Shown: positions 51 to 44,649 of the stretch, in pieces
Layout of the letters: each line of letters opens with the position of its first letter
Numbering within the stretch: position 1 is the first letter of the stretch
Virus record (IMG/VR): IMGVR_UViG_3300032516_000055
Coordinates: 1-44,649 of that record
Length of the DNA stretch: 44,649 nt
Source of the DNA: a virus
Direction: 5' to 3' (one strand)
The notes under the pieces: model-generated
Database searches by the model: none
What the model was told of the DNA's origin: nothing
The model's input: the letters and a program-made list of their open reading frames with translations, nothing else
Program-made: the position numbers and the translations under genes

Positions 51-126
51 AATTTTATCTCCTTTCATCTTTAAATTCAGTGCATAATGATTACCTACAC
101 TCCTCTTTAAATTAGTAAATATAACG
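1..126. repeat. Terminal direct repeat, left copy
   Basis: Bases 1-126 are identical to 44503-44628. They include the 5' part of a small leftward gene that is complete only at the right end. This is the usual signature of a circular molecule, or a terminally redundant one, opened at an arbitrary point, with a unit length of about 44,502 bp. The identity stops at base 127, where the two copies continue differently. Confidence 0.95.
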
Positions 127-1976: not shown

Positions 1977-2005
1977 ATTATATCACACATGAGACATCAT
2001 GTCAA
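1977..2005 (-). promoter_or_regulatory. Consensus promoter with operator-like spacer
   Basis: On the minus strand: TTGACA (2000-2005), exactly 17 bp, TATAAT (1977-1982). The spacer holds ATGTCTCATGTGTGA, a near direct repeat of a 7-bp unit (ATGTCTC, ATGTGTG). The same spacer recurs at 2179-2193, on the other side of the RHH gene. A GACAT-C-ATGTC palindrome overlaps the -35 box. This is likely a regulated promoter controlled by one of the small DNA-binding proteins. Confidence 0.8.
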
Positions 2006-2172: not shown

Positions 2173-2201
2173 AATATATCACACATGAGACATTTTGTCA
2201 A
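2173..2201 (-). promoter_or_regulatory. Promoter of the RHH gene with operator-like spacer
   Basis: On the minus strand: TTGACA (2196-2201), 17 bp, TATATT (2173-2178). The spacer repeats the ATGTCTCATGTGTGA seen in the 1977-2005 promoter. The start codon of the RHH gene is at 2149. Confidence 0.8.
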
Positions 2202-4156: not shown

Positions 4157-4557
4157 TGGCTTACAGTAAAAAATACATGATAGAAGAATCATTAAAAGCA
4201 ATTCAAGAAAATAAACTATTTTTTATAGATGACATTTTTGCCTACGTAGAGTTTTGTGCGGCTACATTTTATAATCATGAATTGGAGAAAGTAGAGACAA
4301 TAAAAAGAGCATTGGCAGAAAATAGCATTAAAGCAAGACAATCATTAAAACAAAAATGGTATATGTCAGATAATCCAACATTACAAATTGCACTATATAA
4401 ACTTCTTTGTCCAGAGGAAGAATATCATAGATTGGCAAATACTAAACAAGCTATAGACCATACTTCAAAAGGTGAAAAAATAGATTTTATAGGTCAAGAT
4501 GCTCGAGAAAGAATTAAGGAATTAAAAGAAGAAAATAAAGAAGAAGATAATGGTTAG
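4156..4557 (+). CDS. Terminase small subunit (putative)
   Basis: A 133-residue, mainly helical protein directly before and overlapping the large terminase, and directly after the methyltransferase: the usual place of a small terminase. The N-terminal region (about 8-60) is compatible with an HTH DNA-recognition domain and the tail (115-133) is very acidic and lysine-rich. It would bind the packaging start site and recruit the large subunit. The call rests mainly on position and size; sequence similarity cannot be tested here. Confidence 0.7.
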   Translation: MAYSKKYMIEESLKAIQENKLFFIDDIFAYVEFCAATFYNHELEKVETIKRALAENSIKARQSLKQKWYMSDNPTLQIALYKLLCPEEEYHRLANTKQAIDHTSKGEKIDFIGQDARERIKELKEENKEEDNG

Positions 4558-9985: not shown

Positions 9986-11191
9986 ATGTCTGATTTAAAG
10001 TTTAATACAGAAGAACTAAGACAAATAAATAGCTTAGTTACTGATTTAAGGGATTCCGTAGATGGAAAATCTAAAAAAACTCAAGATGAAATTTCTAAAA
10101 TAAATTCAGTATTAAATGAATTTGAGAAAAAAAATCAAGAAATTATTATAACAAAAACTAAAATAGAAAATGAAGCAAGGGAGCAAAAAGAAAAAATTGA
10201 AATGCTTGAAAAAAAATTAATTGATGTATCTACTTTTAATACAAAAAGTATAGTTAACTCTAAAGAATATAAAGATACACCTGAATATAAAGCATTAAAT
10301 CTATATTCTAAAAAAGGTATTAATGGCGTTTCAATGGAATATAAGGATTATTTACGAACAGACGTGGGTGCTCAAGGTAATTTTTTAGTTCCTACAGCAA
10401 TGGTTAATTTTATGCTAAATGAAATACAGGAAATTTCTCCTGTTAGACAATTAGTAAGAAAAATTACTATTGAAACAAAAAGTATTGAAATTCCGATTGG
10501 TGTTGGTATTCCAGATGCACCTTTTGAAAAAGAACTTGAATCAGGAACAAGATCTACACCAACTTACAGAATGGAAACACTGACAGCTTTTGCTCAACAA
10601 ACAACGATACCAGTATCAAGAGATATTTTAGCATTCTCTAGTTTTGATGTAGAAGCAGAAGTTGTATCAAAAGCAAATCAAGCCTTTGCTAAAGCAGAAG
10701 GAAATAAAATTCTGACTGGTACAGGAATAAAAGAACCGCAAGGCATTTTAAATTCTTCTGTTGCTAAGATTGAAACTGCCTCATCTGGAGCAGTTACATT
10801 TGATGAAGTAATTAAATTAGCAGGAGAAACAAAACAAGGCTATAAAGAATCTTATTTTTTTAATAAGAAAACATTAGTTTTTTTAAGAACTATGAAGAAT
10901 GGTGCTAATGAATATCTTTGGAGAATTGGCGGAGAAAGTATGCCAACGGAAATAAATGGTTATCCTTATATAATTTTTCAAGATATGCCAGACATTGCAT
11001 CTGCCGCTCTTCCAATTGGGTTCGGAGATTTATTTGAAGGATATACGATTTTAGATTCACTCAATATGTCTATGTTAAGAGATGAATATACACCAAAAGA
11101 TAAAAGAGCAATTGAGTTTACTTTTTATCGCTATTTAACAGGTCAGGTTATTATGCCAGAAGCGATTAAATTGATAAAAATAAAAGCTTAA
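9986..11191 (+). CDS. Major capsid protein, HK97 fold
   Basis: 401 aa with a strong AAGGAG site. Residues 1-85 form a coiled-coil delta (scaffold-like) domain, likely removed by the upstream protease. The mature part contains TDVGAQGNFLVPTAM, then the E-loop/P-domain region and the hallmark ILTGTGIKEPQGIL. The C-terminal part runs DEYTPKDKRAIEFTFYRYLTGQVIMPEAIKLIK, a pattern standard for Phage_capsid PF05065. The gene follows the protease directly, which is the normal order. Confidence 0.93.
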   Translation: MSDLKFNTEELRQINSLVTDLRDSVDGKSKKTQDEISKINSVLNEFEKKNQEIIITKTKIENEAREQKEKIEMLEKKLIDVSTFNTKSIVNSKEYKDTPEYKALNLYSKKGINGVSMEYKDYLRTDVGAQGNFLVPTAMVNFMLNEIQEISPVRQLVRKITIETKSIEIPIGVGIPDAPFEKELESGTRSTPTYRMETLTAFAQQTTIPVSRDILAFSSFDVEAEVVSKANQAFAKAEGNKILTGTGIKEPQGILNSSVAKIETASSGAVTFDEVIKLAGETKQGYKESYFFNKKTLVFLRTMKNGANEYLWRIGGESMPTEINGYPYIIFQDMPDIASAALPIGFGDLFEGYTILDSLNMSMLRDEYTPKDKRAIEFTFYRYLTGQVIMPEAIKLIKIKA

Positions 11192-11200
11192 TATAATAAT

Positions 11201-11225
11201 AGAATAAACAATTTATGTTTATTCT
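11201..11225 (+). terminator. Hairpin between capsid and downstream gene
   Basis: AGAATAAACA (11201-11210) pairs perfectly with TGTTTATTCT (11216-11225) around a 5-base loop. No U-run follows, so it is more likely an mRNA-stabilising or processing element at the end of the capsid coding region than a full terminator. Confidence 0.5.
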
Positions 11226-11251
11226 GACTTTAAATTTTAGGAGGATATAAA

Positions 11252-11665
11252 ATGCAAGCTTACGATTTATTTTCAAGAATAGAAGTTGTAAATGCTCTTG
11301 ATTCTACTGCTATATCAACTAGTACTACAACTGTAGGAGAAACAATTGATACAAGCTCATGTGAAAGTCTTGTTTTTGCTATTAAATCAGAAACATTAAC
11401 AGATGGTGCTTATGCTGTACAGGTATTTGTTAGTGATGATTCTGGTATGGCAGGAGAAGTACAAGTAATAAAAGACTATGATAGTGCAGATACTTTAATC
11501 AGTTCTGCAATTTCTTTTGCTCTTGCAGACGATAATATAGTTAAGATTGTAGGAGTTGTTAGCGGAAAAAGATATGCAAGAATTAAAATTGTTTCAACAG
11601 CAGTTACTACTGGTGGAACATTCAGTGCTACGGCTATAAAAGGAAATAAAAGACACATTGCATAA
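11252..11665 (+). CDS. Putative capsid decoration/stabilising protein (137 aa)
   Basis: A Ser/Thr/Ala/Val-rich, predicted all-beta small protein with a strong AGGAGG site, directly after the capsid gene. In many contractile and siphophages this slot encodes a head decoration or stabilising protein; the sequence pattern (symmetric beta-sandwich, few lysines, no membrane segment) fits. It is bracketed by hairpins on both sides, which suggests a separately dosed transcript. Family not firmly recognised. Confidence 0.6.
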   Translation: MQAYDLFSRIEVVNALDSTAISTSTTTVGETIDTSSCESLVFAIKSETLTDGAYAVQVFVSDDSGMAGEVQVIKDYDSADTLISSAISFALADDNIVKIVGVVSGKRYARIKIVSTAVTTGGTFSATAIKGNKRHIA

Positions 11666-14738: not shown

Positions 14739-16355
14739 ATGAATATTATTTCTAAACCATTCGTAACTGTTAATAAGCTTCCTGCTATTGTTCCAGCTGG
14801 TATGGAAGACCAAAAAATATTAGTAATAGGACAAAAATTATCTACTGGTTCTGCCACAGAAAAAATTTTATATGAAGACGTAACTAAAGCAGATGTCAAT
14901 ACTCTTTTTGGGAAAGGTTCTTTCTTACAGAATTCTTTATCAGGAATTTTTGATGTATTTCAAAGGTCAGGTTCAATAAAATTGCCTCGTGTAGATGTTA
15001 TCCCTCTTGATGATGTTATTGCTGGAGTTAAAGCAACATCAACATTAATTGTTTCTGAAGTTGGTGGTTCAACAAATGCCGCAACAGTTACTGGAAATAT
15101 AGAAGTAATAATTGGCTCTAAATTTTTATATACTTTTCCTATAACGATAGCAGACGGACAGGCAATAGTTACTGGTACTGGTAATATTGCAGATGCTATC
15201 GCAAATGCAATTAATGATAATGATGAGTTACCTGTAACAGCTGTAAATGTAGCAGGAACAATAACATTAACTTGTAGGCACAAAGGTACTATCGGAAATG
15301 GTATTACATTTAGAGTTAAAGGTTTGTCTTATGATGGTGCTAATTATGTTTTGGGTAATGTTAAAATAGCTATTACTGCTTTTACAGGAGGAGTTACAGA
15401 CCCAACTGTTACAACAATTCTTTCAGTAGTTGGAGATAAAAGATATCAGACAATAACTCATCCAATTGAATACGGAATAGTTTTTTCTGTAACTAATTTT
15501 CTTGATAATAGATTTAATGTTGATAACGATATTCAAGACGGTGTTTGTATAGTATCAAATACAGATACTACTTCAAATTTAAAAACCGCACTATCATCTT
15601 TAAATTCTCAATCATTAGTTTATTTTTGTAATAAAAAAGTATCTGAATCTATGTATAACGGAAGTACTGTAATAGATTTAGATTTTGTAAGTTCAGCAAG
15701 ATTTGCAGCAATACGGGCATTAAGACTTACAGAAGATGCTAATATAATTAGATTCGTAGCAAGTAATGTTCAATCAAAAGATTTAAGAGGTGGAAAACAT
15801 ATTTCAACATTGCCTTATCCTAATACACCTGTCTATGCTATATCACCAATAGAAACTATTTATGGTTTTACTCAAACAGAAATTCAAGAATTAGAAGATT
15901 TAGGCGGTTCTGTAATGGGTAATAATAATGTTGGAAATCAGATTCTTCTTGGTGATATTGTAACAACTTATAAGACAGATGCTCAAGCAAATCCTGATCC
16001 AACATGGCATTATCTTGAAACTGTAGATACATTAAGTATAAGTGCAGAATATATGTTTAATAATTTAAAACAAGATTTTGCACAATCAAGATTGACAGAA
16101 GGTAATTTAATTAATGGTTTTACTATGGTTAATGAAATAGCATTTAAAGGTCAATTGAAAAAATATTATATTGATTTATCAGAGGAAGCTATTACACCGG
16201 AGGGAAAAGATGCTGTAGATTATTTTTATAATAATATATCAACAGTGATAGATATGTTAAACGGCAGAATTAGTGCTACTTGTAATTTGCCAATTGTAGT
16301 TCAGTTAAGAGAAATACTTGTTAATTTAAGAACAACTTTTTCAATAGGAGGATGA
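14739..16355 (+). CDS. Contractile tail sheath protein, Mu gpL-like
   Basis: 538 aa. The N-terminus (ISKPFVTVNKLPAIVPAGMEDQKILVIGQKL) and domain order match the Mu-type sheath family. The C-terminal part includes WHYLETVDTLSISAEYMFNN and a terminal beta-strand used for strand exchange between subunits. The sheath makes this phage a myovirus. It is preceded by its own promoter and followed two bases later by the tube gene. Confidence 0.88.
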   Translation: MNIISKPFVTVNKLPAIVPAGMEDQKILVIGQKLSTGSATEKILYEDVTKADVNTLFGKGSFLQNSLSGIFDVFQRSGSIKLPRVDVIPLDDVIAGVKATSTLIVSEVGGSTNAATVTGNIEVIIGSKFLYTFPITIADGQAIVTGTGNIADAIANAINDNDELPVTAVNVAGTITLTCRHKGTIGNGITFRVKGLSYDGANYVLGNVKIAITAFTGGVTDPTVTTILSVVGDKRYQTITHPIEYGIVFSVTNFLDNRFNVDNDIQDGVCIVSNTDTTSNLKTALSSLNSQSLVYFCNKKVSESMYNGSTVIDLDFVSSARFAAIRALRLTEDANIIRFVASNVQSKDLRGGKHISTLPYPNTPVYAISPIETIYGFTQTEIQELEDLGGSVMGNNNVGNQILLGDIVTTYKTDAQANPDPTWHYLETVDTLSISAEYMFNNLKQDFAQSRLTEGNLINGFTMVNEIAFKGQLKKYYIDLSEEAITPEGKDAVDYFYNNISTVIDMLNGRISATCNLPIVVQLREILVNLRTTFSIGG

Positions 16356-17288: not shown

Positions 17289-17467
17289 AAGAAGCAGGTT
17301 TCGACTACAATTTTATAGTAGGTATGTTGTGTAGATTTTTTAAAGGTGGTATTACTTTTGAATATATTGATAATTTACCTATTCCTGATATAATTAATCT
17401 TAATAATACTGCTGTTAAAATTTCAGAAAAAGAAAAAAAAGAAATGGATTCTCAAAATGGCAACTAA
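16788..17467 (+). CDS. Tail assembly chaperone, -1 frameshift product (gpGT-like)
   Basis: Two heptamers of the X XXY YYZ class lie in the right phase, A AAA AAT (17255-17261) and T TTT TTG (17261-17267). A -1 slip there leaves the stop at 17286 and continues in an open frame, FFEYFPGQLKEAGFDYNFIV onward, to the stop at 17465-17467, overlapping the tape-measure start. The product would be 226 aa. The extension contains CRFFKGGITFEYI and other hydrophobic blocks, so it is a genuine domain. This matches the conserved gpG/gpGT frameshift of long-tailed phages. Confidence 0.82.
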
Positions 17468-18821
17468 TTCAATACAATATATTGTTGAGTTAATAGATAA
17501 ATATAGTCCTGTTCTCAATAAAATTAATGAGGATATGAAAAAATTTAAGAAACAACAAGAGGAGGCAAGTTTTTCTATAAAAAAATTAAGTGATAATTTA
17601 GAGAAAAGTGGCAAGAGCATGATAGGTCTAGGAAAAAAATTCTCTCTTAGATTAACTACTCCAATTTTAGCATTAGGTGGTAATGCTTTAAGATTATGGA
17701 ATGAAGAAGCGCAAGCAATAGAACAAGTAAGAATAGCTCTTGAATCTACAAAAGGAGTATCTGGCAAAACTTTAGATGGTTTAATAGCAAGTGCAAAAAA
17801 ATTACAAAGAGAAACATTATTTGGAGACGATACAATAATTGGAGGAGTAACTGCACAATTATTAGCATTTACAAATATTGCCAATAATCAATTTGACAGA
17901 ACGCAACAAGCTATATTAAATATATCAACAAGATTATCTGCCGCTGGTGATAAAACAATGGATTTAGTATCTGTAACAAAAATTTTAGGCAAGGCATTGA
18001 ATGATCCTGTGAATGCAATAGGTAATTTAAGTCGTTCAGGTATTCAATTTTCTAAATCTCAAAAAATTTTTATTAAATCTTTAGCAGAAAGTGGAAGAAT
18101 AGCAGAGGCGCAAAATATAATATTGACAGAATTAGAAAAAAAATATGGAGGAGCGGCAAAGGCGGCGGCATTAGCGGGAACGGGACCGATTAAACAATTA
18201 TGGACATTAATTGGAGATTCCCAAGAAGGATTTGGTAAATTAATAATGGAAGGTATAAGTCCTTTTATAGAAAAACTGAAAGAATTAGCAATTAAGGTAG
18301 ATAATTTAAATCCATCAACAAAATTAATGATTATAAAAATATTAGCACTTACAGCGGCATTACCACCATTAGCAATATTTATAGGTAGTGTAGTTTTTGC
18401 ATTGGGTTATTTACTTACTCCAATTGGTCTTGTTGTAGGAGCAATAACATTATTAAGTGAGGGTATAGTTTTTTTAATAGCAAATTGGGATAAAATTAAA
18501 GCGGCTTTTGGTGAATATAAAGTATTGATATATATACATGCTTGGTTTATATTAATAAAAAACGTGATAGTAAACATAATTGATCTATTTGGTTATTTTA
18601 TAGATAAACTTTCTTCAAGTCCTATTGGAAAATTAGGTAAAATACATAGTAGTATAAAAGAAAATATAGGTGAATTTATAACTGCAAAAGTTAATCCTAC
18701 TGTTAATATTGGTGGTGCAGTTAGTATAGATATAAGCGCGGCAAAAGGACTTAGTGGAATCGCTACAGGCAGAGGAGAGTATTTGAAATTAAATACTGGT
18801 AAGAATATGAAAGGTAGATAA
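17457..18821 (+). CDS. Tape measure protein (short, 454 aa)
   Basis: The N-terminal 60 residues form a coiled coil. The middle has the typical LTTPILALGGNALRLWNE and the AAKAAALAGTGPIKQLW repeat-like region. Residues about 290-345 are strongly hydrophobic and probably insert into the host membrane at ejection. At 454 residues it is small for a tape measure, which predicts a short tail. No lysozyme or peptidase domain is visible. It overlaps the chaperone extension at the start and touches the gpN-like gene at its end. Confidence 0.85.
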   Translation: MATNSIQYIVELIDKYSPVLNKINEDMKKFKKQQEEASFSIKKLSDNLEKSGKSMIGLGKKFSLRLTTPILALGGNALRLWNEEAQAIEQVRIALESTKGVSGKTLDGLIASAKKLQRETLFGDDTIIGGVTAQLLAFTNIANNQFDRTQQAILNISTRLSAAGDKTMDLVSVTKILGKALNDPVNAIGNLSRSGIQFSKSQKIFIKSLAESGRIAEAQNIILTELEKKYGGAAKAAALAGTGPIKQLWTLIGDSQEGFGKLIMEGISPFIEKLKELAIKVDNLNPSTKLMIIKILALTAALPPLAIFIGSVVFALGYLLTPIGLVVGAITLLSEGIVFLIANWDKIKAAFGEYKVLIYIHAWFILIKNVIVNIIDLFGYFIDKLSSSPIGKLGKIHSSIKENIGEFITAKVNPTVNIGGAVSIDISAAKGLSGIATGRGEYLKLNTGKNMKGR

Positions 18822-20005
18822 TGTTATTATTAGATAGATTAAGAACAGCAACATTTAAAGGTGTAGAATTTCTTGTTGAAAATTCATCTATAAGTTTTGG
18901 ACAAAAAACAGTTGTACATCAATATCCAAACTCTGATAGAACAGAAGTAGAATTTTTAGGACAATCCGAAGATATTTTCACATTAGATATATACATAAAT
19001 AGCATAGAAGAAGATTATATTGGCAAAAGAAATTTACTTAAAGATATATTAAATTCTAGCGGGGCAGGATTACTTGTTCATCCATATGAAGGTGAAGTTA
19101 GATGTTCTGTTGTAGACAAAATAACTTTAGTAGAGAATGATAGAAGTTTTGGACTAGCTAGATTTAGTGTTACATTTCAAAAAACATCTCTATATCTATA
19201 TCCTACCAATGCACTTGATAATATTACTAAGATAAGAAATTTATATGTACAACTACAAAATGCCTATAAAAATAAAGTTATAGATGAATATTATTTTGAC
19301 AATTTTTTACCAGAAAATTTTATAAAAACAAAACAAACATTGTCTGCTTTATATCATGAATTTGAAATAGTAAAATCAATTGTTCCTTTAAATAAAGACC
19401 AAGAAGTTGAATATAATAAAAGCATTAATACTTTTAATAATAATATAAATTCTAGTGTTAGTGACCCAAATGTTATGGCTGAAAGTCTTGATAATGTTAT
19501 TACTAATATCGATGGACTTGCTACCAATGAAATAGATAACATAGAAATATATAAAAAATTATATGAATTTGGAGGATATTATTTAATATCTCCTGAGTTA
19601 ACTGCACAGGCTAAAATAGTCAATGGTAACTATAGATTAATTTCTAATTATATAAATATAATAATGCTTGGACTGTCTTATAATTCAATAGCATTAATAA
19701 AATTTGAAACAGACGAACAACTTAATTCTTTTGAAGCTTTACTTGAATCACAATATAACTATATATTTCTTAACTTAGATTCTGATATAGCTTTTTTAAT
19801 AAATAGTTTAAGAAATGAAATTACTAAATTTTTTAATAGTCAAGACGTCAGGCGCGTAATTACAAAAGAGGTTACTGGCAATCCTTTAGTTAAGTTATGT
19901 TATTTATTATATGAAAATACAAATGATTATGAGAAAATATATAATCTAAATAACAAAATATCTCCTATTTGGTATGAAGGAAATATTAGGGTTTTGACTA
20001 ATTAA
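18821..20005 (+). CDS. Mu gpN-like DNA circularisation / baseplate-hub protein
   Basis: 394 aa. The N-terminal 120 residues match the DNA_circ_N family (PF07157): TATFKGVEFLVENS, then GQKTVVHQYPNSDRTEVEFLG and FSVTFQKTS. The remainder is helical. In Mu, gpN is in the tail tip/baseplate and was first implicated in DNA circularisation. The stop overlaps, tail to tail, the stop of the leftward moron gene by 4 bp. Confidence 0.85.
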   Translation: MLLLDRLRTATFKGVEFLVENSSISFGQKTVVHQYPNSDRTEVEFLGQSEDIFTLDIYINSIEEDYIGKRNLLKDILNSSGAGLLVHPYEGEVRCSVVDKITLVENDRSFGLARFSVTFQKTSLYLYPTNALDNITKIRNLYVQLQNAYKNKVIDEYYFDNFLPENFIKTKQTLSALYHEFEIVKSIVPLNKDQEVEYNKSINTFNNNINSSVSDPNVMAESLDNVITNIDGLATNEIDNIEIYKKLYEFGGYYLISPELTAQAKIVNGNYRLISNYINIIMLGLSYNSIALIKFETDEQLNSFEALLESQYNYIFLNLDSDIAFLINSLRNEITKFFNSQDVRRVITKEVTGNPLVKLCYLLYENTNDYEKIYNLNNKISPIWYEGNIRVLTN

Positions 20006-20308: not shown

Positions 20309-20869
20309 TTAATGTAACATTTCAAAAAATGTTTTCTTTTTCTTAATAACTGGCGTTCTAAATTCTTTGCCTTTTGTATTAATTGATAAACTTTCAATTT
20401 CTCTGTTAGGTTTCATAATCATTACTTTTGCAAATCCATTCTGCTCAAATGGTTGACAAAAGATATATTTAAATTTGCAGATTTCTTTACCTTGTTTGTC
20501 TATATATCCATATTGATTTTTTATCTCAACAATAGCAAAACCATTTAAAAAATCACTGCAACTATCATATTTTATTTGACAAATTTCATTCCCTTGACTA
20601 TCGACAAATCCCCATTTATCATTCTTTGAGACAGCCATTAATCCCTCATTTAATTCTCTATATGTATTATATTTTGCAAATAAATTTTCATAGACTGGCT
20701 TATCGGTATTGTTTGCATTGCCGATAACATCTAGTTTATTATTAGTTTCTCTAATAATACTAGTAGTTTCATAATCATTGATATTTACTACATTTTTATC
20801 AAGATTATCAGTACCAAAACAATTAGAACAAAACAAATTAATAATAATCACTAACAATAATTTTCTCAT
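20309..20869 (-). CDS. Secreted WG-repeat protein (186 aa), moron
   Basis: An N-terminal signal peptide (residues 1-19, hydrophobic LLLVIIINLFC). Two WG-type units follow: KWGFVDSQGNEICQIKYDS (85-103) and a degenerate unit beginning YGYIDKQGKEICKFKY (120-135). WG repeats occur in exported or surface proteins of host bacteria. The gene has its own near-consensus promoter on the opposite strand inside the tail operon, the classical arrangement of a lysogenic-conversion gene. The effect on the host is unknown. Confidence 0.8.
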   Translation of the reverse strand: MRKLLLVIIINLFCSNCFGTDNLDKNVVNINDYETTSIIRETNNKLDVIGNANNTDKPVYENLFAKYNTYRELNEGLMAVSKNDKWGFVDSQGNEICQIKYDSCSDFLNGFAIVEIKNQYGYIDKQGKEICKFKYIFCQPFEQNGFAKVMIMKPNREIESLSINTKGKEFRTPVIKKKKTFFEMLH

Positions 20870-21019: not shown

Positions 21020-22270
21020 ATGAATGAGAAAGTATCTCTTGAAGTAAATGGTATAAAATATTTAGGCTTTATGGAAATGAATTATTCTAAATCAATTGAA
21101 GATCTAGGAGGAGTTTTTTCTTTTACTGCTTCAACAGAAAAAAATAAATTTACTCCATTTAAAGGTCAAGAAAAATGCAGGGTCTACATAAATGATTATC
21201 CTCTTATAACAGGTTATATCGAGTCGATGAATTATTCTTATAATGAAAATTCACATGAAATAACTATTAATGGTAGAGATAAAACTTGTGATATAATAGA
21301 TAATAGCGTGGTTGGGGATATTGATTTTACTGCGCCTTTTTCATTAGAAAATTTAATTAGAAATGTTTTAGATCTTGCTGGTTTAGATGAAATTAAAATT
21401 ATAAATTATATAGGTGAAGTAGATTCTTTTCAAAGTAATGAAAAATTATCAAACGAAGTAGGCGAAAATATGTTTGATTTTTTAGAAAAATATTGCAGAA
21501 AAAGAGGGGTATTATTGACATCTGATGGAGATGGGGACTTAGTTATAACAAGGGCGGGAGACCAACAACTTAATACAATTCTACTTAATGAAATTGATGG
21601 TAATGGTGGAGGAAACAATATTAAGAACGCTTCTATAAATTATGATTTTTCAAATAGATATTATGGATATATCTGCAAATCTCAAAAAAATCCAAGTACA
21701 GAAAATTTTGAGGGTATTGTAGATGATTTGGGAGATAATCCAACTGCTGAAGAATTACAAGAAATTATAGAAAAAGATTTGAATTTTGAGAATCAAGTAG
21801 GAACAGCACTTGATAATGAAATGAGAAAAACAAGAATTTTAGAATTTCAAAACGAGACATCTTCTCCAGTTGTAAGTAATCAAGAACGGGCTAAATGGGA
21901 AGCTAATATTAGAAGAACACGGTCATTAGTTTATAACTGTGAAGTTAATTATGTCTTTGCTGATGAAAAAAATACGGCTTTTTTTATGCCAAATAAATTA
22001 ATAGCAGTTAGAGATGATTTTCTTGATATAAATGCGTTAATGTTAATAAAAAGTGTTAATTATAACATTTCTGTGTCATCTGGTACGAGTGTAAAATTAC
22101 AATTAGTTCCAAAAGATGCTTACAAACCAATGATTCAAATAAATACTAGAGATTCAAAATATAATAAAGTTGGTACAAATGTTTCTCAAACTGCTGTTGC
22201 TCCAACTACCAAACAAGTATCTGAATTTGAATTTGAAAAAGCATATTATAAAAGGTCATGGGGAATATAA
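21020..22270 (+). CDS. Baseplate hub protein, Mu gpP / gp44-like
   Basis: 416 aa. The start has no Shine-Dalgarno sequence and fits the leaderless promoter above. The pattern (VNGIKYLGFMEMNYSKSIEDLGGVF, then YPLITGYIESMNYSYNENSHEITINGRDKT) is the hub fold of gp27/gpD/Mup44 proteins. It forms the trimeric hub on which the spike sits. The C-terminus ends in an aromatic and basic tail. Confidence 0.87.
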   Translation: MNEKVSLEVNGIKYLGFMEMNYSKSIEDLGGVFSFTASTEKNKFTPFKGQEKCRVYINDYPLITGYIESMNYSYNENSHEITINGRDKTCDIIDNSVVGDIDFTAPFSLENLIRNVLDLAGLDEIKIINYIGEVDSFQSNEKLSNEVGENMFDFLEKYCRKRGVLLTSDGDGDLVITRAGDQQLNTILLNEIDGNGGGNNIKNASINYDFSNRYYGYICKSQKNPSTENFEGIVDDLGDNPTAEELQEIIEKDLNFENQVGTALDNEMRKTRILEFQNETSSPVVSNQERAKWEANIRRTRSLVYNCEVNYVFADEKNTAFFMPNKLIAVRDDFLDINALMLIKSVNYNISVSSGTSVKLQLVPKDAYKPMIQINTRDSKYNKVGTNVSQTAVAPTTKQVSEFEFEKAYYKRSWGI

Positions 22271-22787: not shown

Positions 22788-23267
22788 ATGACTGATTATT
22801 CACATGATATAAAATTAAGACAAGATGAAGAAGATGGAATTTATGATATTCATATTACTGATGATGGAGATTTTGAGACTGATGATAGCTTTGATATAAA
22901 TATTATAATGTCTTTATTTGTAGATTCCAGAGCAGATTCTAGCGAAATAGTAGAGCCTTTAAGAAGGCGTGGATTTTGGGGTGATTTAGTTTTATTCTCA
23001 CAAGAAAATTTAAAATCTGGCAGTAAACTATGGCTTGTCTCTGGTAGAAATACAAAAGAACAATTAAATAAAGCTATCGATTATACAAGAAAATCTTTAC
23101 AATGGTTAATCAATGAAAAATATGTTAAAAATATAAATGTTGATGGACAACAAACTATTAATGGAATAATTATTAATATAGAATTTATTGTTGAAGATAA
23201 CAATATTTCTGAATTTAATTTTAAACTTTGGGAAAACGGAATCGTTGAAACCATAGAAACATTATAA
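22788..23267 (+). CDS. Baseplate protein, Mu gp46-like
   Basis: 159 aa. SHDIKLRQDEEDGIYDIHITDDGDFETDDSFDINI at the start and RRGFWGDLV near residue 60 match the phage GP46 family (PF07409), a gp25-like baseplate wedge component. Correct position between spike and gp47-like gene. Confidence 0.87.
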   Translation: MTDYSHDIKLRQDEEDGIYDIHITDDGDFETDDSFDINIIMSLFVDSRADSSEIVEPLRRRGFWGDLVLFSQENLKSGSKLWLVSGRNTKEQLNKAIDYTRKSLQWLINEKYVKNINVDGQQTINGIIINIEFIVEDNNISEFNFKLWENGIVETIETL

Positions 23268-23275: not shown

Positions 23276-24586
23276 ATGTTTAGAATACCTTCAAATCGTC
23301 AAGAAATCTATGATAAATTATCTTCTGATACGCAAGCAAATTTACCAAATACAAACCCTCAAAAAAAACAAAGTTGGTTAAGAGGTATTTTATCTGGCTT
23401 TTCAGGTGCATTTTATGATTTATATTTTCAACTTAAAGAATCAATAAAAGTTTATTTTGCTAATACAACCTACGGAGAATATCTCGAACAACAGTGTGCT
23501 AATAATGGTATTTTTAGAAATCCAGCAACGCAATCGTTTGGTTATATTTCTTTTTCAGGAACAGTTGGTTCTACAATTCCAGATGGTACATTATTAAATG
23601 GAATTTCAAATAATATTCAATATGAGACATTATCAACAAAAACAATAACACAAGAACAATTACAAGTTTTATCTATAACTTATACGTCAGGCGTAGCAAC
23701 TGTTATAACGAATGTTACACATGATTTAGTTAATGATATAAATATTACTATAGCAGGAGCGACACCATCTGATTTAAACGGAACATTTCCAGTTACTGCA
23801 ATTATTGATGGGAGCACTTTGCAATATGATACGACTCTTGTCGGTTCAGGTACAGCAACAGGAACAATTACATTAGATGTAACAAGAGCAATAGTAGATA
23901 TAGAAAGCACAAGTGCTGGTGAAATAACAAATCTTGATACTAATGACCAATTAAATTTAGTCTCTGCAATTGTTGGTGTTAATAATGTTACTAGAGTTAT
24001 TTATGATGGTCTTGGTGGTGGTGCAGATGTAGAAAATGATGAAGATTTACGCGCAAGATTAATTTATAAATTACAAAATCCAGTTACGTTATTTAATGCA
24101 GTTCAAATTGAATTATTATTAAAAACTTTATCTTGGGTAGATAGAGTTTTTGTTTTTAGGATTACCCCTGATGTTGGTCAGGTTACAATTTATATTTTAA
24201 AAGAAGATAATGAATTGCCAAATTACGTAGAATTACAAGAAGCAAAAGATTTAATAGAAGATACAATCCTACCAGTTAATACCGCGATTAGTGATGTATT
24301 TATTTTAGCGCCAACTCAAGTAATTGTTAATTTTGATTTTTCAAGTATTACTCCAGATACGCCAACAATGAGAACATCTATAACAAATAGATTAGTGGAA
24401 TTTTTTAGAAACAATACAGATATTGGAGAAGATATAACAGAAAAACAATATGAATGTGCAATTCATTCTACAATTGATATTGAAAGCGGAGAGTTGTTGG
24501 AAGATTTTACATTAACAACACCAACTGGAGATATAACAATAACCACAGGCGAAATTGGTGTTTTAGGTGGAGTTACTTTCCCATAA
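23276..24586 (+). CDS. Baseplate J-like protein, Mu gp47
   Basis: 436 aa. The core with GYISFSGTVGSTIPDGTLLNG and GGGADVENDEDLRARLIYKLQNP is diagnostic for baseplate J/gp47 (PF04865). Residues about 125-190 carry a beta-domain with YTSGVATVITNVTHDLVNDI not found in the shortest gp47 proteins. A similar domain is in the neck protein at 13521. The stop overlaps the next start by one base. Confidence 0.9.
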   Translation: MFRIPSNRQEIYDKLSSDTQANLPNTNPQKKQSWLRGILSGFSGAFYDLYFQLKESIKVYFANTTYGEYLEQQCANNGIFRNPATQSFGYISFSGTVGSTIPDGTLLNGISNNIQYETLSTKTITQEQLQVLSITYTSGVATVITNVTHDLVNDINITIAGATPSDLNGTFPVTAIIDGSTLQYDTTLVGSGTATGTITLDVTRAIVDIESTSAGEITNLDTNDQLNLVSAIVGVNNVTRVIYDGLGGGADVENDEDLRARLIYKLQNPVTLFNAVQIELLLKTLSWVDRVFVFRITPDVGQVTIYILKEDNELPNYVELQEAKDLIEDTILPVNTAISDVFILAPTQVIVNFDFSSITPDTPTMRTSITNRLVEFFRNNTDIGEDITEKQYECAIHSTIDIESGELLEDFTLTTPTGDITITTGEIGVLGGVTFP

Positions 24587-25206
24587 TGGATTTTAAATAT
24601 AATAATGAAAATAAAACAAAAATTTTAGCTTCATATCTTCCAGATGGAAAATCTCTTGAAGCAAAAAATATTCCATCTAAAAATATATATAAATTTTTAG
24701 ATGCAATTGCAAAAAATTTTGTTCTATTTGAAACTGACATACAAAATGTTATTAAGGAAATGAATCCCGCAACAACAGAAGATTTAATCTCAATGTGGGA
24801 AAAAGAATATGGTTTGCCTAATGCTTGTATGCCAATTGCAACAACGCTTGAACAAAGAAGAACAAATATATTAATAAAAATTGGTATGAATGGGATACAA
24901 ACAATTCCTCAATATCTTGCATTGTTTCAAAAATTTGGATTTCCTATAGAGATATATCCATACGGTTATTTATATGTGTATCCTTTTGATATTTTAGGTT
25001 ATCCAATAATTTTATCAGACCAAAGATATAATAAATTTACGATAGAAGTTAGATTGCCAAAAGCATTCAATGAAGAAGTCTACGATTTTAGTACAAATGG
25101 TTATCCTATTATTTTATTGAATGAATTAAACCAAACATTTATTGAGTGTTTATTAAAAAGATTAGTTCCTGCAAATGTTAATATTGTATTTAGATATGTC
25201 TTATAG
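24586..25206 (+). CDS. Tail protein, Mu gp48-like (DUF2313)
   Basis: 206 aa. The pattern MNPATTEDLISMWEKEYGLP, then TLEQRRTNILIKI and QYLALFQKFGFPIEIYPYGY, is the Mu gp48/YmfQ family (PF10076). It is the last baseplate gene before the fibres and connects the baseplate wedge to the tail fibre. Confidence 0.88.
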   Translation: MDFKYNNENKTKILASYLPDGKSLEAKNIPSKNIYKFLDAIAKNFVLFETDIQNVIKEMNPATTEDLISMWEKEYGLPNACMPIATTLEQRRTNILIKIGMNGIQTIPQYLALFQKFGFPIEIYPYGYLYVYPFDILGYPIILSDQRYNKFTIEVRLPKAFNEEVYDFSTNGYPIILLNELNQTFIECLLKRLVPANVNIVFRYVL

Positions 25207-34686: not shown

Positions 34687-35532
34687 TTAAATTAACGATT
34701 TAATATATTGAATTGCACCAAGATATTCTTTGAGATACTGTGGATTATCTTTGTGATATTCGTTAACCGTAGCTTCAAACTCCTCCAATGTTCCTGCCCA
34801 ACAGCCACATCTAACAATAATTCCCTCGGTACAAAAAAAGAAATAAGTGCATGCCTTTCTGCTTCCGATACAATCTATTTTTTTCATAGAAACTAAATTA
34901 TATTTTTCTTCTATAGTTATATTTTTTCCAAAACTACAATCTCCTGCAAACCCACAACCTTTTGCAAAACTACAACCTTTTGCAAAATTGCAATTTTTTC
35001 CAAAACTACACCCTTCTGCAAAACTACACCCTTCTGCAAAACTACACCATTCTGCAAAACTACACCGTTCTGCAAAACTACACCGTTCTGCAAAACTACA
35101 ACCTCTTGCAAAACTACACCCTTCTGCAAAACTACACCATTCTGCAAAACTACACCGTTCTGCAAAACTACACCCTTCTGCAAAACTACACCGTTCTGCA
35201 AAACTACACCCTTCTGCAAAACTACACCCTTCTGCAAAACTACACCATTCTGCAAAACTACACCGTTCTGCAAAACTACACCGTTCTGCAAAACTACAAC
35301 CTCTTGCAAAACTACACCATTCTGCAAAACTACACCGTTCTGCAAAACTACAACCTCTTGCAAAACTACAACCTTTTGCAAAACTACACCATTCTGCAAA
35401 ACTACACCCTTCTGCAAAACTACACTGTTCTGTAAATATTTTTATATCCGAATAATCGCCAGATGGACAAATAATATAGCCATTTGCATCTTTCTCAAAT
35501 TTATTAAATTCTTCCTGTGTGTATTTTTTCAT
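34687..35532 (-). CDS. Cysteine hexapeptide-repeat protein, 28 units (281 aa)
   Basis: A 36-residue leader (NGYIICPSGDYSDI) precedes 28 consecutive hexapeptides, C-S-F-A/G-x-x, at residues 37-204. A conserved C-terminal domain follows (RCGCWAGTLEEFEATVNEYH). The period of 6 with buried Phe and small Ala fits a beta-helix; a Cys at the same place in each unit would form ladders along the surface. Similar proteins with CSFGE repeats exist in gut phages as I recall them, with unknown role. No signal peptide. It is in the early operon, so probably not structural. Confidence 0.8.
   Translation of the reverse strand: MKKYTQEEFNKFEKDANGYIICPSGDYSDIKIFTEQCSFAEGCSFAEWCSFAKGCSFARGCSFAERCSFAEWCSFARGCSFAERCSFAERCSFAEWCSFAEGCSFAEGCSFAERCSFAEGCSFAERCSFAEWCSFAEGCSFARGCSFAERCSFAERCSFAEWCSFAEGCSFAEGCSFGKNCNFAKGCSFAKGCGFAGDCSFGKNITIEEKYNLVSMKKIDCIGSRKACTYFFFCTEGIIVRCGCWAGTLEEFEATVNEYHKDNPQYLKEYLGAIQYIKSLI
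34921..35424 (-). repeat. 18-bp tandem repeat array coding CSFAxx
   Basis: 28 in-frame copies of an 18-bp unit (plus strand like TTCTGCAAAACTACACCG). Only the last two codons vary much (E/R/K then G/W/R). A six-unit block (RG, ER, ER, EW, EG, EG) occurs twice, so higher-order duplication is visible. Every frame is open over the array, which produces false ORFs on both strands. Copy number is likely variable and prone to assembly error. Confidence 0.95.
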
Positions 35533-37425: not shown

Positions 37426-38148
37426 TTAGAATGGAATCTCTTCTGTAAATGGTATTTCTTCTTCTATAGAAGCAGAAAGTTCACCAGATTCAATCTTCAT
37501 TTGTTTAACTTTGCTATGAATAATATCAATTTGTTTTGGAGATTTTAAATATACTACATCTGTTACGCCATTAAAAGTTTTTCCATCTTTCGTAAAAGTA
37601 GTTAATTCTTTTAATTTTTCTCCTGCTCTTCTTTTGTTTCCAGTATTCAAATCTAAAAGCCATTTTTCAATTTCTTCTAGTTTTTGTTTATCACTTTCAT
37701 CATGTAAATATTTTTTTGGAGTATTAGGTTTAGAAATATTTGTTTGTGCCTTAATCGCACTTGTTACTTCTTCAGCAGATGCGATTGAAGTATTAATCCC
37801 AATACCCATATTTGCTAACGCCCTGCCCAAGGCAGAGGTCTCACAATTTTCAATATAAGATGTTTTATTGATAAGTCCATTATTTGCCATTTCATAAGCA
37901 TGGCCAGTTGATATAACCTTTTCATTCTCATTTTTTATAGTAGCTTTCATAATAATTTTTTCATCAGTTACACTAATTATTTCTGTTATAATAGAATATT
38001 GTTTATAGTGTTCCCAAAAATAAAGCAATCTTTCATTCACCATTACATATTCTTTACCATGAATATTAACTGTTTTAAATTTAATTGGTTTGTTTTCTAA
38101 AACTGTATTACCTTCTAAAGATTGTTGTACTTTTTCTAAGTTTGTCAT
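37426..38148 (-). CDS. ERF-family single-strand annealing protein
   Basis: 240 aa. KFKTVNIHGKEYVMVNERLLYFWEHY, then TGHAYE and the highly conserved YIENCETSALGRALANMGIG mark the ERF/annealing family. The tail after residue 145 is a linker, with a highly acidic C-terminus (EEEIPFTEEIPF) like an SSB tail. It pairs homologous single strands; the partner exonuclease is the next gene upstream. Together they make a Red-like recombination pair. Confidence 0.87.
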   Translation of the reverse strand: MTNLEKVQQSLEGNTVLENKPIKFKTVNIHGKEYVMVNERLLYFWEHYKQYSIITEIISVTDEKIIMKATIKNENEKVISTGHAYEMANNGLINKTSYIENCETSALGRALANMGIGINTSIASAEEVTSAIKAQTNISKPNTPKKYLHDESDKQKLEEIEKWLLDLNTGNKRRAGEKLKELTTFTKDGKTFNGVTDVVYLKSPKQIDIIHSKVKQMKIESGELSASIEEEIPFTEEIPF

Positions 38149-38150: not shown

Positions 38151-39050
38151 TTATTTCTCCTTTTTATTTACTATTCTTAAAACTCTTGTTTTGTTTTCTG
38201 TTAGAAAATTATTATATAAATCGGGCATTTCTTCTTTTACTCTTTTTGTATCTAATGTTTTTCTTGATTGCGACTTCCAAGTAATTTTGTAGAAATCATT
38301 TTCTGAAAGTTCATTATCTTTTAGAAAAATTTTAACTTCGTTTTCTTGTTTTTCAATAATTGCTTCAAGACTGCGTTTATCTTCTTTTAATGCTTCTATA
38401 CTTTCTACTATCTTAATAATTTCTTCAGGTAATTCTATTTGTTTACCTTCAATTTCTTGAGGGAATAATTTATATAAGACGTCATCATCTTGTCTTAAAA
38501 CTTGTAATGGCATAACTTTAGGTATTACAAAATTATTCCAAAAATCTACTTCTTTTGAAACTATATTCTGTAACATTCTTTCATCTCTATTTATTTCACG
38601 ACAAAGAAATTCTCTATTTTTAACTAAAACTGCAATATAACATTTTTTATATCTAGTAACAGCAAGATAGTGCAGGCATTGCAAAATATATTCCTGTGGA
38701 ATATCATCATCTTTCCAATCTTTATTTTCAAATGTAGTTTTGCACTCAAGAATAGCATCTTCGCCAACAACTTTTCTATCAATATTGGCCGCCAAAAATG
38801 GATATTTTTGATGATAGATTGTTTCATTTACGCATCTTACTTTTTTTCCTATTCTTTTTTCAAATATTTTCGCAACTAATTCTTCCAGGTATTTTCCAGC
38901 CATACAAGGTAAACTATCAGATAAATCTTTTGGTTCTATTTGTCCAGTCTTTTCAGCCCAGATTTGTAGGGGAGTCTTCCATCTTGATAATCCAAGTACA
39001 CCAGCGGCATCACTACCGCCTATATATTCATTTCTTTTTTCTAAGTCCAT
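38151..39050 (-). CDS. YqaJ-like exonuclease
   Basis: 299 aa. The catalytic pattern of the YqaJ (PF09588) lambda-exonuclease-like fold is all visible: GGSDAA at 11-16, Glu56/Glu57, AANIDRK with Asp91, LECK with Glu102 and Lys104, and QCLHYLAV near 143. It degrades one strand from double-strand ends for the ERF protein two bases downstream. Confidence 0.92.
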   Translation of the reverse strand: MDLEKRNEYIGGSDAAGVLGLSRWKTPLQIWAEKTGQIEPKDLSDSLPCMAGKYLEELVAKIFEKRIGKKVRCVNETIYHQKYPFLAANIDRKVVGEDAILECKTTFENKDWKDDDIPQEYILQCLHYLAVTRYKKCYIAVLVKNREFLCREINRDERMLQNIVSKEVDFWNNFVIPKVMPLQVLRQDDDVLYKLFPQEIEGKQIELPEEIIKIVESIEALKEDKRSLEAIIEKQENEVKIFLKDNELSENDFYKITWKSQSRKTLDTKRVKEEMPDLYNNFLTENKTRVLRIVNKKEK

Positions 39051-39945: not shown

Positions 39946-40341
39946 ATGAATGTATCAGAATTTAAACATTTATACGAAAAAGAAAACAAAATACAAAGTA
40001 ATATAATGAAATATCTTGATTTATTATCAAAAAGAGTTCCTATTTATTTTTTTAGGGCGGGTAGTGGTATGATTAAAATACATGATGAAAAGAAAGATAG
40101 ATTTTTTCGTACTGGTAGAAAGGGTTGTCCTGACATTATTCTCTTAATTAGAGGTAAGTTTGTAGGTTTAGAATGCAAAAAAATAGATGGGAGATTAACT
40201 GCTTTTCAAAAGAGTGCTAGAAAAGAAATAGAATCAGCAGGAGGATATTATAGGGTAGTAAGTGATATAAGAGATGTAGAGGAAGTAATAAATCTAATCA
40301 TAAAAAAGAAAACTCCTGAAATTAATCAAGAGTCTTCATAA
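39946..40341 (+). CDS. VRR-NUC-domain nuclease (131 aa)
   Basis: The motif is GCPDIILLIRGKFVGLECKK: Asp63, Glu76-x-Lys78, then Gln88 in TAFQKS, the PD-(D/E)XK core of the VRR-NUC family (PF08774). Stand-alone VRR-NUC nucleases from phages resolve branched DNA or act in packaging/recombination. AAGGA ribosome site. It is the only rightward gene in this part and lies between two strong terminators, so it is an independent unit. Confidence 0.9.
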   Translation: MNVSEFKHLYEKENKIQSNIMKYLDLLSKRVPIYFFRAGSGMIKIHDEKKDRFFRTGRKGCPDIILLIRGKFVGLECKKIDGRLTAFQKSARKEIESAGGYYRVVSDIRDVEEVINLIIKKKTPEINQESS

Positions 40342-41251: not shown

Positions 41252-41614
41252 TTATTTTATAATCTTATATTTAATTTTCGGATAGAGTGCCTTAAACAAT
41301 CTACTTTTGATATACCAAACATGAGTCATAGTCTCATCGCATTTAACCTCGTGTGCTTCTTTTTTTCTATTTTTTAATATCACTGTAAAATCTGGCTCTA
41401 TATCACATATTTTGTATCCATTAACTATAAGTGGATAACTCTTTGCTCGAATATATTTTCTAATAACGCCTTTATTTTTAAAATACTCTAGTTTTTGCGC
41501 ATATTGTTTTTCTAATTGTGAATCAAATTCTAAACCATTCCATTTACACGGTTTATTGAAAAATTCTTTATCATTATCATTTTTATTTTTTTTAAATAAC
41601 CATCCGAATAACAT
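41252..41614 (-). CDS. DUF1064-like PD-(D/E)XK nuclease (120 aa)
   Basis: FDSQLEKQYAQKLEYF, then Asp75 in DIEPDFTV and Glu89-x-Lys91 in HEVK form the nuclease core. The C-terminal WYIKSRLFKALYP is conserved in phage endonucleases of this family (PF06356), thought to cut branched or single-stranded DNA. It lies next to the structured RNA and the replication genes. Confidence 0.8.
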   Translation of the reverse strand: MLFGWLFKKNKNDNDKEFFNKPCKWNGLEFDSQLEKQYAQKLEYFKNKGVIRKYIRAKSYPLIVNGYKICDIEPDFTVILKNRKKEAHEVKCDETMTHVWYIKSRLFKALYPKIKYKIIK

Positions 41615-41633: not shown

Positions 41634-41855
41634 AAAAAACTAACAACGCAGGGATTTGCCAAGATTTTCAACCACGCGCTACCCATCACGGATTCTTACC
41701 GGCCAGAGCCTTGTCCGTTGTCTTGTAAAGTCACCCTGCAGATTCAGCGTTACAACATCACGTTTTTTATGGCAGTATGTATCTGAACGAGTTATTATCT
41801 TGCCATTTAAACAACTCCGCCTGCGTCTACCTATTCCGCCACTTGTTAGTTTTTT
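41634..41855 (-). ncRNA. tRNA-Leu-like structured locus, interrupted
   Basis: A locally GC-rich island with 13-bp perfect inverted ends (41634-41646 and 41843-41855). On the minus strand the 5' end reads CTAACAA, G, then TGGCGGAATAGGTAGACGC, which is the D-arm of tRNA-Leu; the 3' end TTGTTAG completes a 7-bp acceptor stem. GCGGA can pair with a distant TCCGT as an anticodon stem, and a T-stem (GCAGGG/CCCTGC) is also possible. About 125 extra bases lie between the halves, less than a normal group I intron. No CCA is encoded. Could be an intron-bearing or decayed tRNA, or a new RNA. Confidence 0.5.
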
Positions 41856-41876: not shown

Positions 41877-42196
41877 TTATTCTTCTATTTCTTCTAATTT
41901 TGGTATATTAGAGTTTTTTATTAAACTATCTAATATACATAGGATACAATACTTGCCATTATATTCTTTAAATTTTTCTTTAAAGTTAATTTTTATTCTA
42001 TCCATATCTTTTCTACCACATTTTGGACAATAATATGTAATTTTTTTGTTTTCTTTTTTTTTGTTTTTTTTTGAAAATATTTATCATAGTTTTTTTCATT
42101 CTCCAATATCAACTTAAAATTAAATCCAACCACAAAACCATAACCTAAACCCAGAAGAAAAGCCAGTATTAAGCCTGTTAAATCATATAGTGTCAT
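41877..42196 (-). CDS. Membrane anchor plus zinc ribbon, joined by likely -1 frameshift
   Basis: The zero frame (42196-41993) gives a membrane span (LTGLILAFLLGLGYGFVVGF) and a lysine tail, ending soon after. At 42059-42053 an in-phase A AAA AAG (the dnaX-type slippery heptamer) occurs. The -1 frame then gives KITYYCPKCGRKDMD and CILC, a two-CxxC zinc ribbon, to the stop at 41877-41879. The full product is 106 aa. The zinc-ribbon frame has no start of its own. The A9-C-A9 tract could also be a sequencing indel, or allow transcriptional slippage. Confidence 0.7.
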
Positions 42197-43274
42197 TTAC
42201 TTTATGCCTCTTTGATTCTATGTATTTATCAAATATTCTTTTAATTTCAAAATTAATAGAAGTCTCTGATAAATCAAATTCTGTTGTCTTCTTATTGTTT
42301 TTTTCAAATCTTTCTTTTATATTATTTATAGCTATCTTTTTTATTTTTTGTCTATCTTCAATACCTAAAGCATTATATTCCAGCATTACCTTATCAAATT
42401 CTTCTTTTTCTTGCATAGCAAGTCTTTGTTCTTCTGTAAGATTTTTTGTTAAATCATATATTTTTTTATTTACATTTTTATTATTTTTATAGATAGAAAA
42501 TATAATTTTATCTGCCGAATGATTTTTCATCAGCATTTTATATGTGAAAAATATGTCTGTATATTCAAATAAATCTCGCTTAGAGCGTTCTAAAACATAT
42601 TCCTTAAATGACTGAAACCGTTTATACTTATCTGAAACATCAAGTATTTTTTTTAATTCAGAATATATAAATGTCCTTTTACCTATTGATTCATATTGTT
42701 TTAATAATTCATATATCCTTATTGAATGTATACTTTTTAGTTTGATTATATTTTGAAGTGTATATGCCTTAAAGTGATCGTTTAATTCGAGAAGATATGG
42801 TTTAAGTTCATCTGAAAATTTAACTTCTATATAACCTAATTTTTTAAAATATTTTATACTAGAAGCCCATGCAACCTTAAGAAAACCTCCATCTTCACGA
42901 GGTATATGTATAATTTTTTTCATTAATAATTCAGATTTATTTGATACTTCTTTGTCGATTATATCTTCATCATCTTGCGAAATTTGTGGGGTAGGTATAG
43001 ATTTTTCAATTAATGATTCGATATCGTTATTTATTCTATCTTTTTTATTGCCATATTTTTCATTAATATTATTATGCATATTATGAGTATCTGATTCAAA
43101 TATGTTTAAAAAATCTTTTACATAAACTCGGTAAGCTTTAAAATCTTTATCATTTTTTTTTATTTGAGATAAAACACAAAGTATTATGCGTTGCTCTTCA
43201 AGAGTATATGAGTATCGTGCATTTATCAAGTCATTATGTTTCCTAACAATAGAATTTTTATTTATTAAGTTCAT
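42183..43274 (-). CDS. Replication initiator, Rep_3 (RepB/RepA) family
   Basis: 363 aa. The N-terminus (NDLINARYSYTLEEQRIILCVLSQI) and the middle winged-helix region (LQNIIKLKSIHSIRIYELLKQY, then LKKILDVSDKYKRFQSFK) are the marks of the Rep_3 plasmid initiator family (PF01051). It would bind the five iterons 180 bp upstream and open the origin with host DnaA. A typical plasmid gene, very unusual for a Mu-like phage. The stop overlaps the start of the next gene by 14 bp. Confidence 0.9.
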   Translation of the reverse strand: MNLINKNSIVRKHNDLINARYSYTLEEQRIILCVLSQIKKNDKDFKAYRVYVKDFLNIFESDTHNMHNNINEKYGNKKDRINNDIESLIEKSIPTPQISQDDEDIIDKEVSNKSELLMKKIIHIPREDGGFLKVAWASSIKYFKKLGYIEVKFSDELKPYLLELNDHFKAYTLQNIIKLKSIHSIRIYELLKQYESIGKRTFIYSELKKILDVSDKYKRFQSFKEYVLERSKRDLFEYTDIFFTYKMLMKNHSADKIIFSIYKNNKNVNKKIYDLTKNLTEEQRLAMQEKEEFDKVMLEYNALGIEDRQKIKKIAINNIKERFEKNNKKTTEFDLSETSINFEIKRIFDKYIESKRHKVNDTI

Positions 43275-43338
43275 GTAAAACTAACCTTAATTTTGTTTTA
43301 TTTATTTTACCTTATTATATATCTATAAGACAAGTTAT

Positions 43339-43366
43339 TTTTTATACACATGCTTTAATATGTCAA
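43339..43366 (-). promoter_or_regulatory. Promoter of rep, overlapping a DnaA box
   Basis: On the minus strand: TTGACA (43361-43366), 16 bp, TAAAAA (43339-43344). Within it, plus strand TTATACACA (43342-43350) matches the DnaA-box consensus TTATNCACA. DnaA binding could therefore regulate rep. Confidence 0.6.
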
Positions 43367-43455
43367 AATATTGATATATTAAATATAGAAAAATAAAACT
43401 CAATTGGATTGTAAAAATAGCGTCCCATGTGTCCCAAAAAAAAATATATTTCTTA

Positions 43456-43565
43456 ATCCCATTTTACTTGCTTCGTTATCCCATTTTACTTGCTTGTTAA
43501 TCCCATTTTACTTGCTTGTTAATCCCATTTTACTTGCTTGTTAATCCCATTTTACTTGCTTGTTG
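43456..43565. repeat. Five 22-bp iterons, plasmid origin
   Basis: Five head-to-tail copies with core ATCCCATTTTACTTGCTT at 43456, 43478, 43500, 43522 and 43544. The first copy differs near its end (CTTCGTT) and the last ends with G. The 22-bp period equals two helical turns, so the Rep binding sites lie on one face. The AT-rich stretch at 43566-43637, containing AAAGCTTT and TAACTAGTTA palindromes, is a candidate melting region. Confidence 0.95.
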
Positions 43566-44372: not shown

Positions 44373-44552
44373 TTAAGATTCAAACATTTCTTCAAAGTAT
44401 TTTTTAAAAATCTTGAATAATTCATTTTCTGTTATCTCTACTTCTTTTTTTTCCTCATTTACTAAAATAAAAGAATCATTAAATTCGACATTAAGTGTCA
44501 ATAGTTCAAAATATTTTTCATTAGAATTTGTTACTTTTAAAGTAAACCCCAT
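44373..44552 (-). CDS. Hypothetical protein (59 aa), junction gene
   Basis: A longer frame opens at 44570, but the ATG at 44550-44552 has AGGAG at the right distance and is chosen. Small acidic soluble protein. Its 5' part is repeated at 1-50, which shows how the two ends join. Confidence 0.65.
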   Translation of the reverse strand: MGFTLKVTNSNEKYFELLTLNVEFNDSFILVNEEKKEVEITENELFKIFKKYFEEMFES

Positions 44553-44628
44553 AATTTTATCTCCTTTCATCTTTAAATTCAGTGCATAATGATTACCTAC
44601 ACTCCTCTTTAAATTAGTAAATATAACG
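44503..44628. repeat. Terminal direct repeat, right copy
   Basis: Identical over 126 bp to 1-126. After 44628 the sequence departs from what follows base 126 at the left end. Confidence 0.95.
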
Positions 44629-44649
44629 AGGAGTGAAGGTAATCATTAT
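44586..44649. repeat. Imperfect foldback at the extreme right end
   Basis: The last 21 bases (44629-44649) are the reverse complement of 44586-44606 with one mismatch, around a 22-base loop. The left-end copy of the same region has no such partner, since it continues into a gene. Either a chimeric read/assembly artefact or a real alternative end of the molecule. Confidence 0.85.

Follow-up and report, generated by a model that had tools for sequence, protein, structure and literature searches.

Can a phage with a contractile tail keep its genome in the host as a free circle, copied from a plasmid-type origin? This question is raised by IMG/VR record IMGVR_UViG_3300032516_000055, a single metagenome contig, which we analyzed over its whole length (positions 1–44,649, hereafter the window). 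An earlier preliminary description, made from the letters alone, had read it as a full Mu-type contractile phage joined to an iteron/Rep_3 plasmid replicon, with no Mu-type transposase and no integrase recognized.

The genome has a G+C content of 27%. Because the two contig ends are identical over 126 bp (Table 1), the contig probably represents an entire circular genome of about 44.5 kb (44,502 bp), which is its simplest reading and which the preliminary description did not note; IMG/VR classes the record as linear despite this identity. The last 21 bp (44,629–44,649) differ from what comes after the left copy of the overlap, and the simplest explanation is a second version of the junction, either in the population or in the assembly. 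Circular closure alone does not separate an episome from virion DNA with terminal redundancy; it is compatible with an episome and no proof of one. A 64-bp near-palindrome (44,586–44,649, 27/30 pairs) stops exactly at the contig end, and its right arm is this same 21-bp alternative to the left-end continuation. We considered a hairpin telomere made by a protelomerase for this palindrome (the myovirus Valp1, which has a protelomerase, has been proposed to be telomeric; PMC11054321) and rejected it, as no protelomerase was found and the left end joins up with the right. Searches of IMG/VR with Rep, the iteron sequence, and the end palindrome found no close relatives.

Table 1. Coordinates, strands, and supporting matches of the main features of the window
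Feature	Position	Strand	Support
End overlap, left copy (126 bp)	1–126	.	identical to 44503–44628
Consensus sigma-70 promoter (12/12) with operator copy 1	1977–2005	-	promoter/repeat match
Arc-like ribbon-helix-helix candidate repressor, 44 aa	2015–2149	-	PHROG 582 Arc-like repressor, E 0.019, weak
Sigma-70-like promoter (11/12) with operator copy 2	2173–2201	-	promoter/repeat match
ParB-N/DNA methyltransferase fusion	2855–4156	+	N6_N4_Mtase 8.3e-39, ParB_N 0.0017
Terminase large subunit	4550–6001	+	PHROG 38, 9.1e-49
Portal, HK97/lambda type	6138–7520	+	PF04860 2.9e-39
Fused ClpP-type/S78 head maturation protease	8373–9980	+	PF00574 1.7e-45, PF04586 3.1e-27
Major capsid protein, HK97 fold family	9986–11191	+	PF05065 3.7e-48
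Tail sheath	14739–16355	+	PHROG 165, 2.9e-47
Tape measure protein	17457–18821	+	PHROG 27166, 8.1e-48
Mu gp43-type DNA_circ_N baseplate hub	18821–20005	+	PF07157 1.1e-18
Mu gp44 (GpP)-type baseplate hub	21020–22270	+	PF21683 2.8e-14, PF22255 2.4e-9, PF21929 1.2e-6
Mu GP46-type baseplate protein	22788–23267	+	PF07409 4.1e-18
Baseplate J (Mu gp47)	23276–24586	+	PF04865 1.4e-35
Mu Gp48-type tail protein	24586–25206	+	PF10076 1.7e-19
Exonuclease-neighbor protein	37426–38148	-	PHROG 11717 (unknown function) 3.8e-39
RecE/lambda-exonuclease-type recombination nuclease	38151–39050	-	YqaJ 8.8e-32, PHROG 434 1.1e-87
VRR-NUC-like endonuclease	39946–40341		PHROG 93, 3.5e-15
DUF1064/Holliday-junction-resolvase-like nuclease	41252–41614	-	PHROG 190 1.1e-11; PF06356 2.7e-5 among small ORFs
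Rep_3 replication initiator, 363 aa (WH1 + WH2)	42183–43274	-	Pfam Rep3_N 3.3e-32, Rep3_C 1.6e-9
Possible DnaA box TTATACACA	43342–43350	+	between rep and iterons; weak
Iteron array, 5 x 22 bp, unit TTAATCCCATTTTACTTGCTTG	43453–43562	+	TRF period 22, 5.1 copies, score 208
End overlap, right copy (126 bp)	44503–44628	.	44629–44649 then continues into different sequence

Particle genes and the nearest relatives by sheath

The predicted genes hold a complete tailed-phage particle set (terminase, portal, protease, capsid, connectors, sheath, tape measure, baseplate, fiber, and holin); an endolysin was not recognized among them. The tail is of the Mu type, as the preliminary description had it, with DNA_circ_N, GpP-like, GP46, Baseplate_J, and Gp48 proteins. 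The "full Mu-type particle" does not extend to the head, where the portal (PF04860), the CLP_protease and S78 protease, and the capsid protein (PF05065) are of the HK97/lambda type. The further suggestion of a particle type that usually goes with transposition is unsupported, because only the tail is Mu-type and the head is of the kind found in SfV-type phages, whose integration is site-specific. SfI, SfV, and SfIV are among the named phages with the closest sheaths. SfV-type phages (Shigella/E. coli) likewise combine a lambda/HK97-type head with a Mu-type contractile tail, and their sheath is ~26% identical over 72%; unlike the window, an E. coli record with an SfV-like sheath, taken from a plasmid collection, has a site-specific integrase, and Rep_3 is not annotated in it. 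Inside the tail operon of the window, a gene for a secreted-looking WG-repeat protein (20,309–20,869, PF14903 9.3e-20) lies on the reverse strand and is likely a cargo gene.

Rep_3 was found in 0 of 49 IMG/VR sheath relatives (whole records were searched, many of them fragments), and the replicon therefore looks like a module swap. The non-structural genes of two long relatives (G003 and G004) include, among others, a gene with a Resolvase domain and another of the Rad52 family; neither Rep_3 nor a Mu transposase is among them. One lead to a host came from the terminase, which is 58% identical to the product of positions 10,001–11,293 of a 23.9-kb contig (L011) from a Gastranaerophilales MAG. 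A sheath search of 286 genomes of the order gave no match, and the Rep homologs of Gastranaerophilales are no closer to the window's Rep than plasmid ones are, leaving this lead unsupported.

The Rep_3 initiator and its iterons

Searched against the Rep_3 family, the 363-aa Rep matched both domains, Rep3_N and Rep3_C, above the Pfam cut-off, bearing out the initiator call of the preliminary description. The protein also matches PHROG 4402 (replication initiation protein, 8.7e-30), and structures of the F-plasmid RepE align with it. Its nearest homologs are plasmid Reps. In a tree, it falls beside the plasmid Reps of Desulfurella, Emticicia, Runella, and Bernardetia with modest support (86/92) and on long branches; the Reps of contigs carrying contractile-tail genes do not come together as a single group in it.

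The five-copy array of 22-bp iterons lies 179–288 bp upstream of the rep start. The earlier wording, "five exact" iterons, is overstated because only three copies match the unit at every position (21, 20, 22, 22, and 22 of 22). An 18-bp core, ATCCCATTTTACTTGCTT, is identical in all five copies and absent elsewhere in the window, with a chance expectation of 0.13 when up to 3 mismatches are allowed. The DnaA-like box noted earlier is present; it carries little weight because TTWTNCACA is found 11 times in the genome. For comparison we used 7 Rep homologs from plasmids and 24 IMG/VR contigs located with an alignment of Reps. In 6/7 plasmid and 21/24 viral-contig homologs (27/31 overall), the region up to about 480 bp upstream of the Rep match contains a tandem array of 21–22 bp; the arrangement seen in the window is thus the usual one for this replicon family. 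The 3.5-kb plasmid of Desulfurella acetivorans, whose Rep is the nearest homolog (36% identical), has 21-bp tandem repeats upstream; unlike the window, it is small and carries no virion genes.

The recognized replication and recombination genes comprise rep, the RecE-type exonuclease, the VRR-NUC-like endonuclease, and the DUF1064/resolvase-like nuclease. As Pfam and PHROG searches of the predicted genes recognized no polymerase, helicase, or primase, Rep is the sole recognized initiator. The protein encoded next to the exonuclease is, by position only, a candidate single-strand annealing or DNA-binding partner; its AlphaFold model (pLDDT 38) was discarded. We are nearly certain that the Rep_3/iteron replicon is correctly identified, and it is very likely that the phage replicates from it.

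Separately, we noticed that the most GC-rich stretch of the genome (41,634–41,855, minus strand; 44% vs. 27%) is bounded by a 13-bp perfect inverted repeat and contains an exact 20-nt tRNA-Leu D-arm, GTGGCGGAATAGGTAGACGC, at 41,823–41,842, where 0 are expected. Rfam, ARAGORN (with introns), and blastn gave no usable match to this element, its shuffled-fold z-score is only −1.05, and tRNA calls obtained by lowering the ARAGORN threshold were dismissed as noise. It is possibly a tRNA-derived phage RNA.

Comparable systems and recurrence of the combination

Contractile phage-plasmids are already known. P1 has iterons and a Rep initiator. P1, D6, and phiBB-1/cp32 are, like the window, contractile phages, and theirs are maintained as plasmids; by their general description, they differ in having virion genes unrelated to those of the window and dedicated partition systems. 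In tyPPing, P1, D6, and phiBB-1 are myovirus phage-plasmids (PMC12977533). The P2-like Burkholderia phage KS14 shares a contractile tail and a Rep-type initiator with the window, whose Rep matches that of KS14 at 25% identity over part of its length. KS14 has a Rep initiator and ParA, and its lysogens yield the prophage as circular plasmid DNA in minipreps (PMC3091744). It differs in having a P2-type head and tail, a ParA gene, and a repressor, whereas the window has a Mu-type tail, an HK97-type head, and no ParA. A plasmid of the Orbaceae bacterium lpD02 (CP133961) resembles the window in carrying Mu-type tail genes (DNA circularization N, GP46, gp47) and a plasmid replication gene on a non-chromosomal replicon; unlike the window, it has a CyRepA1-family replication protein and ParA/ParB pairs, its record is marked linear, and Rep_3 is not annotated. 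Baseplate J also occurs beside ParM genes on the 69-kb circular Aneurinibacillus plasmid pAT1. What is new here is a further example in which a Mu-type tail goes with a Rep_3 plasmid origin, which is uncommon.

The search for relatives with the same Rep and a Mu-like tail, proposed in the preliminary description, was run among the 24 Rep-bearing viral contigs. Baseplate_J was present in four, one of which, G310 (L057, IMGVR_UViG_3300023220_000904; 42,273 bp), also has DNA_circ_N and is thus a second case, with both Rep domains and a Mu-type tail. We found no tyrosine integrase in G310; another of the contigs with Rep and Baseplate_J, G314, does have an integrase. The head of G310 is of a different lambda type (GpA terminase, PF05136 portal, capsid E), and similarity to the window's proteins is detectable only for Rep and for the ParB-N/methylase gene. 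Because the head and most proteins of G310 are unlike those of the window, the combination of Rep_3 with a Mu-type tail probably arose at least twice, as far as these sequences indicate.

Maintenance of the genome

None of the predicted genes was recognized by Pfam or PHROG as an integrase, transposase, resolvase, or ParA, and a six-frame search of the window with PF00589 returned 0 matches, in agreement with the earlier statement on transposase and integrase. A search of the window and its sheath relatives with PF09299 (MuA) gave no match, but its controls were likewise silent, so this negative carries no weight. Several unannotated genes could hide an unrecognized enzyme. Neither a partition gene, a toxin–antitoxin pair, nor a classical CI/LexA-type repressor was recognized among the predicted genes; the ParB-N fusion, judged by its domain matches, is a methylase and not a partition protein. 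The searches support a phage genome that has a Rep_3/iteron replicon and lacks a recognized integration enzyme, and a prophage kept as a free circle is plausible.

A putative control region adds to this picture. The ribbon-helix-helix matches are weak (best E 0.0003–0.02). The 44-aa ORF with the Arc-like match is flanked by two leftward sigma-70 promoters, each of which contains one of two copies of a putative operator, ATATCACACATGAGACATNNTGTCAA, with 0 copies expected. Together they resemble a repressor that governs its own expression and the leftward operon, and such a putative repressor supports a temperate life without proving it.

On balance, we lean toward a temperate phage-plasmid with an HK97-type head, a Mu-type contractile tail, its own Rep_3/iteron replicon, and a circular plasmid prophage. 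Life as a free circle in a bacterial host is probable because the DNA appears to be copied by a plasmid-style replication gene and origin. In such a phage, Rep would bind the iterons, open the AT-rich region between them and rep with the help of DnaA, and load host replication proteins, resulting in low-copy theta replication of the circular prophage. The Arc-like repressor would keep the leftward early operon off through the two operator-bearing promoters. Upon induction, the RecE-type nuclease and its neighbor may drive the recombination-dependent formation of concatemers for packaging.

Against the phage-plasmid reading, a lytic phage with terminal redundancy or headful packaging would show the same closure, and the window could belong to an obligately lytic phage in which a captured Rep_3/iteron origin serves lytic replication only, with no plasmid prophage state. 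Circular closure suits lytic packaging equally, an initiator is needed in lytic replication too and none but Rep is recognized, and the failure to recognize par genes, a toxin–antitoxin pair, or a classical repressor points the same way. Iteron replicons, however, limit their own copy number, a property better suited to maintenance than to bursts; the Arc-like ORF and its two operator/promoters suggest a repression switch, and KS14 shows this type of Rep at work in a plasmid prophage. We consider a purely lytic life unlikely, if still a serious contender.

It is quite improbable that the phage integrates by means of an unrecognized or host-supplied recombinase and uses Rep_3 after excision. 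The tRNA-Leu-like block, 0.34 kb from rep, would then be a possible remnant of an att site, and G314 provides a case of Rep and Baseplate_J together with an integrase. The part of a tRNA gene that integration normally duplicates is its 3′ end, though, and the match here is to the D-arm; moreover, PF00589 was empty in six frames and neither integrase nor resolvase appeared by Pfam or PHROG. One might suspect that the assembly joined a phage contig to an unrelated Rep_3 plasmid, given a single metagenome contig that has no close relatives in the collections searched and whose right end diverges after the overlap. Yet rep sits within a continuous leftward gene series, between the phage recombination/nuclease genes and a small-gene operon that crosses the circular joint, the series shows no shift in base composition or strand skew, and the same combination recurs in G310, making a chimera highly improbable.

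Returning to the phage-plasmid reading, the occurrence of Rep_3 in a phage with an unrelated head, set against its absence from the sheath relatives searched, suggests a replicon that can be exchanged as a module. A bolder reading, which we consider less likely than not, is that in phages with Mu-type tails (the window and G310, whose heads are unrelated) integration modules have given way to Rep_3/iteron replicons more than once. The result would be a recurring class of phage-plasmids without partition genes, in which one iteron initiator would serve both quiet maintenance and lytic growth. Such genomes would probably escape detection in metagenomes by phage-plasmid tests built on known groups.

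The leftward genes of the window also include an ORF (34,687–35,532) in which an 18-bp coding repeat is present in 28 tandem copies (34,929–35,436, minus strand), encoding a protein of CSFAE[G/R/W] hexapeptides whose unit varies at its last residue.
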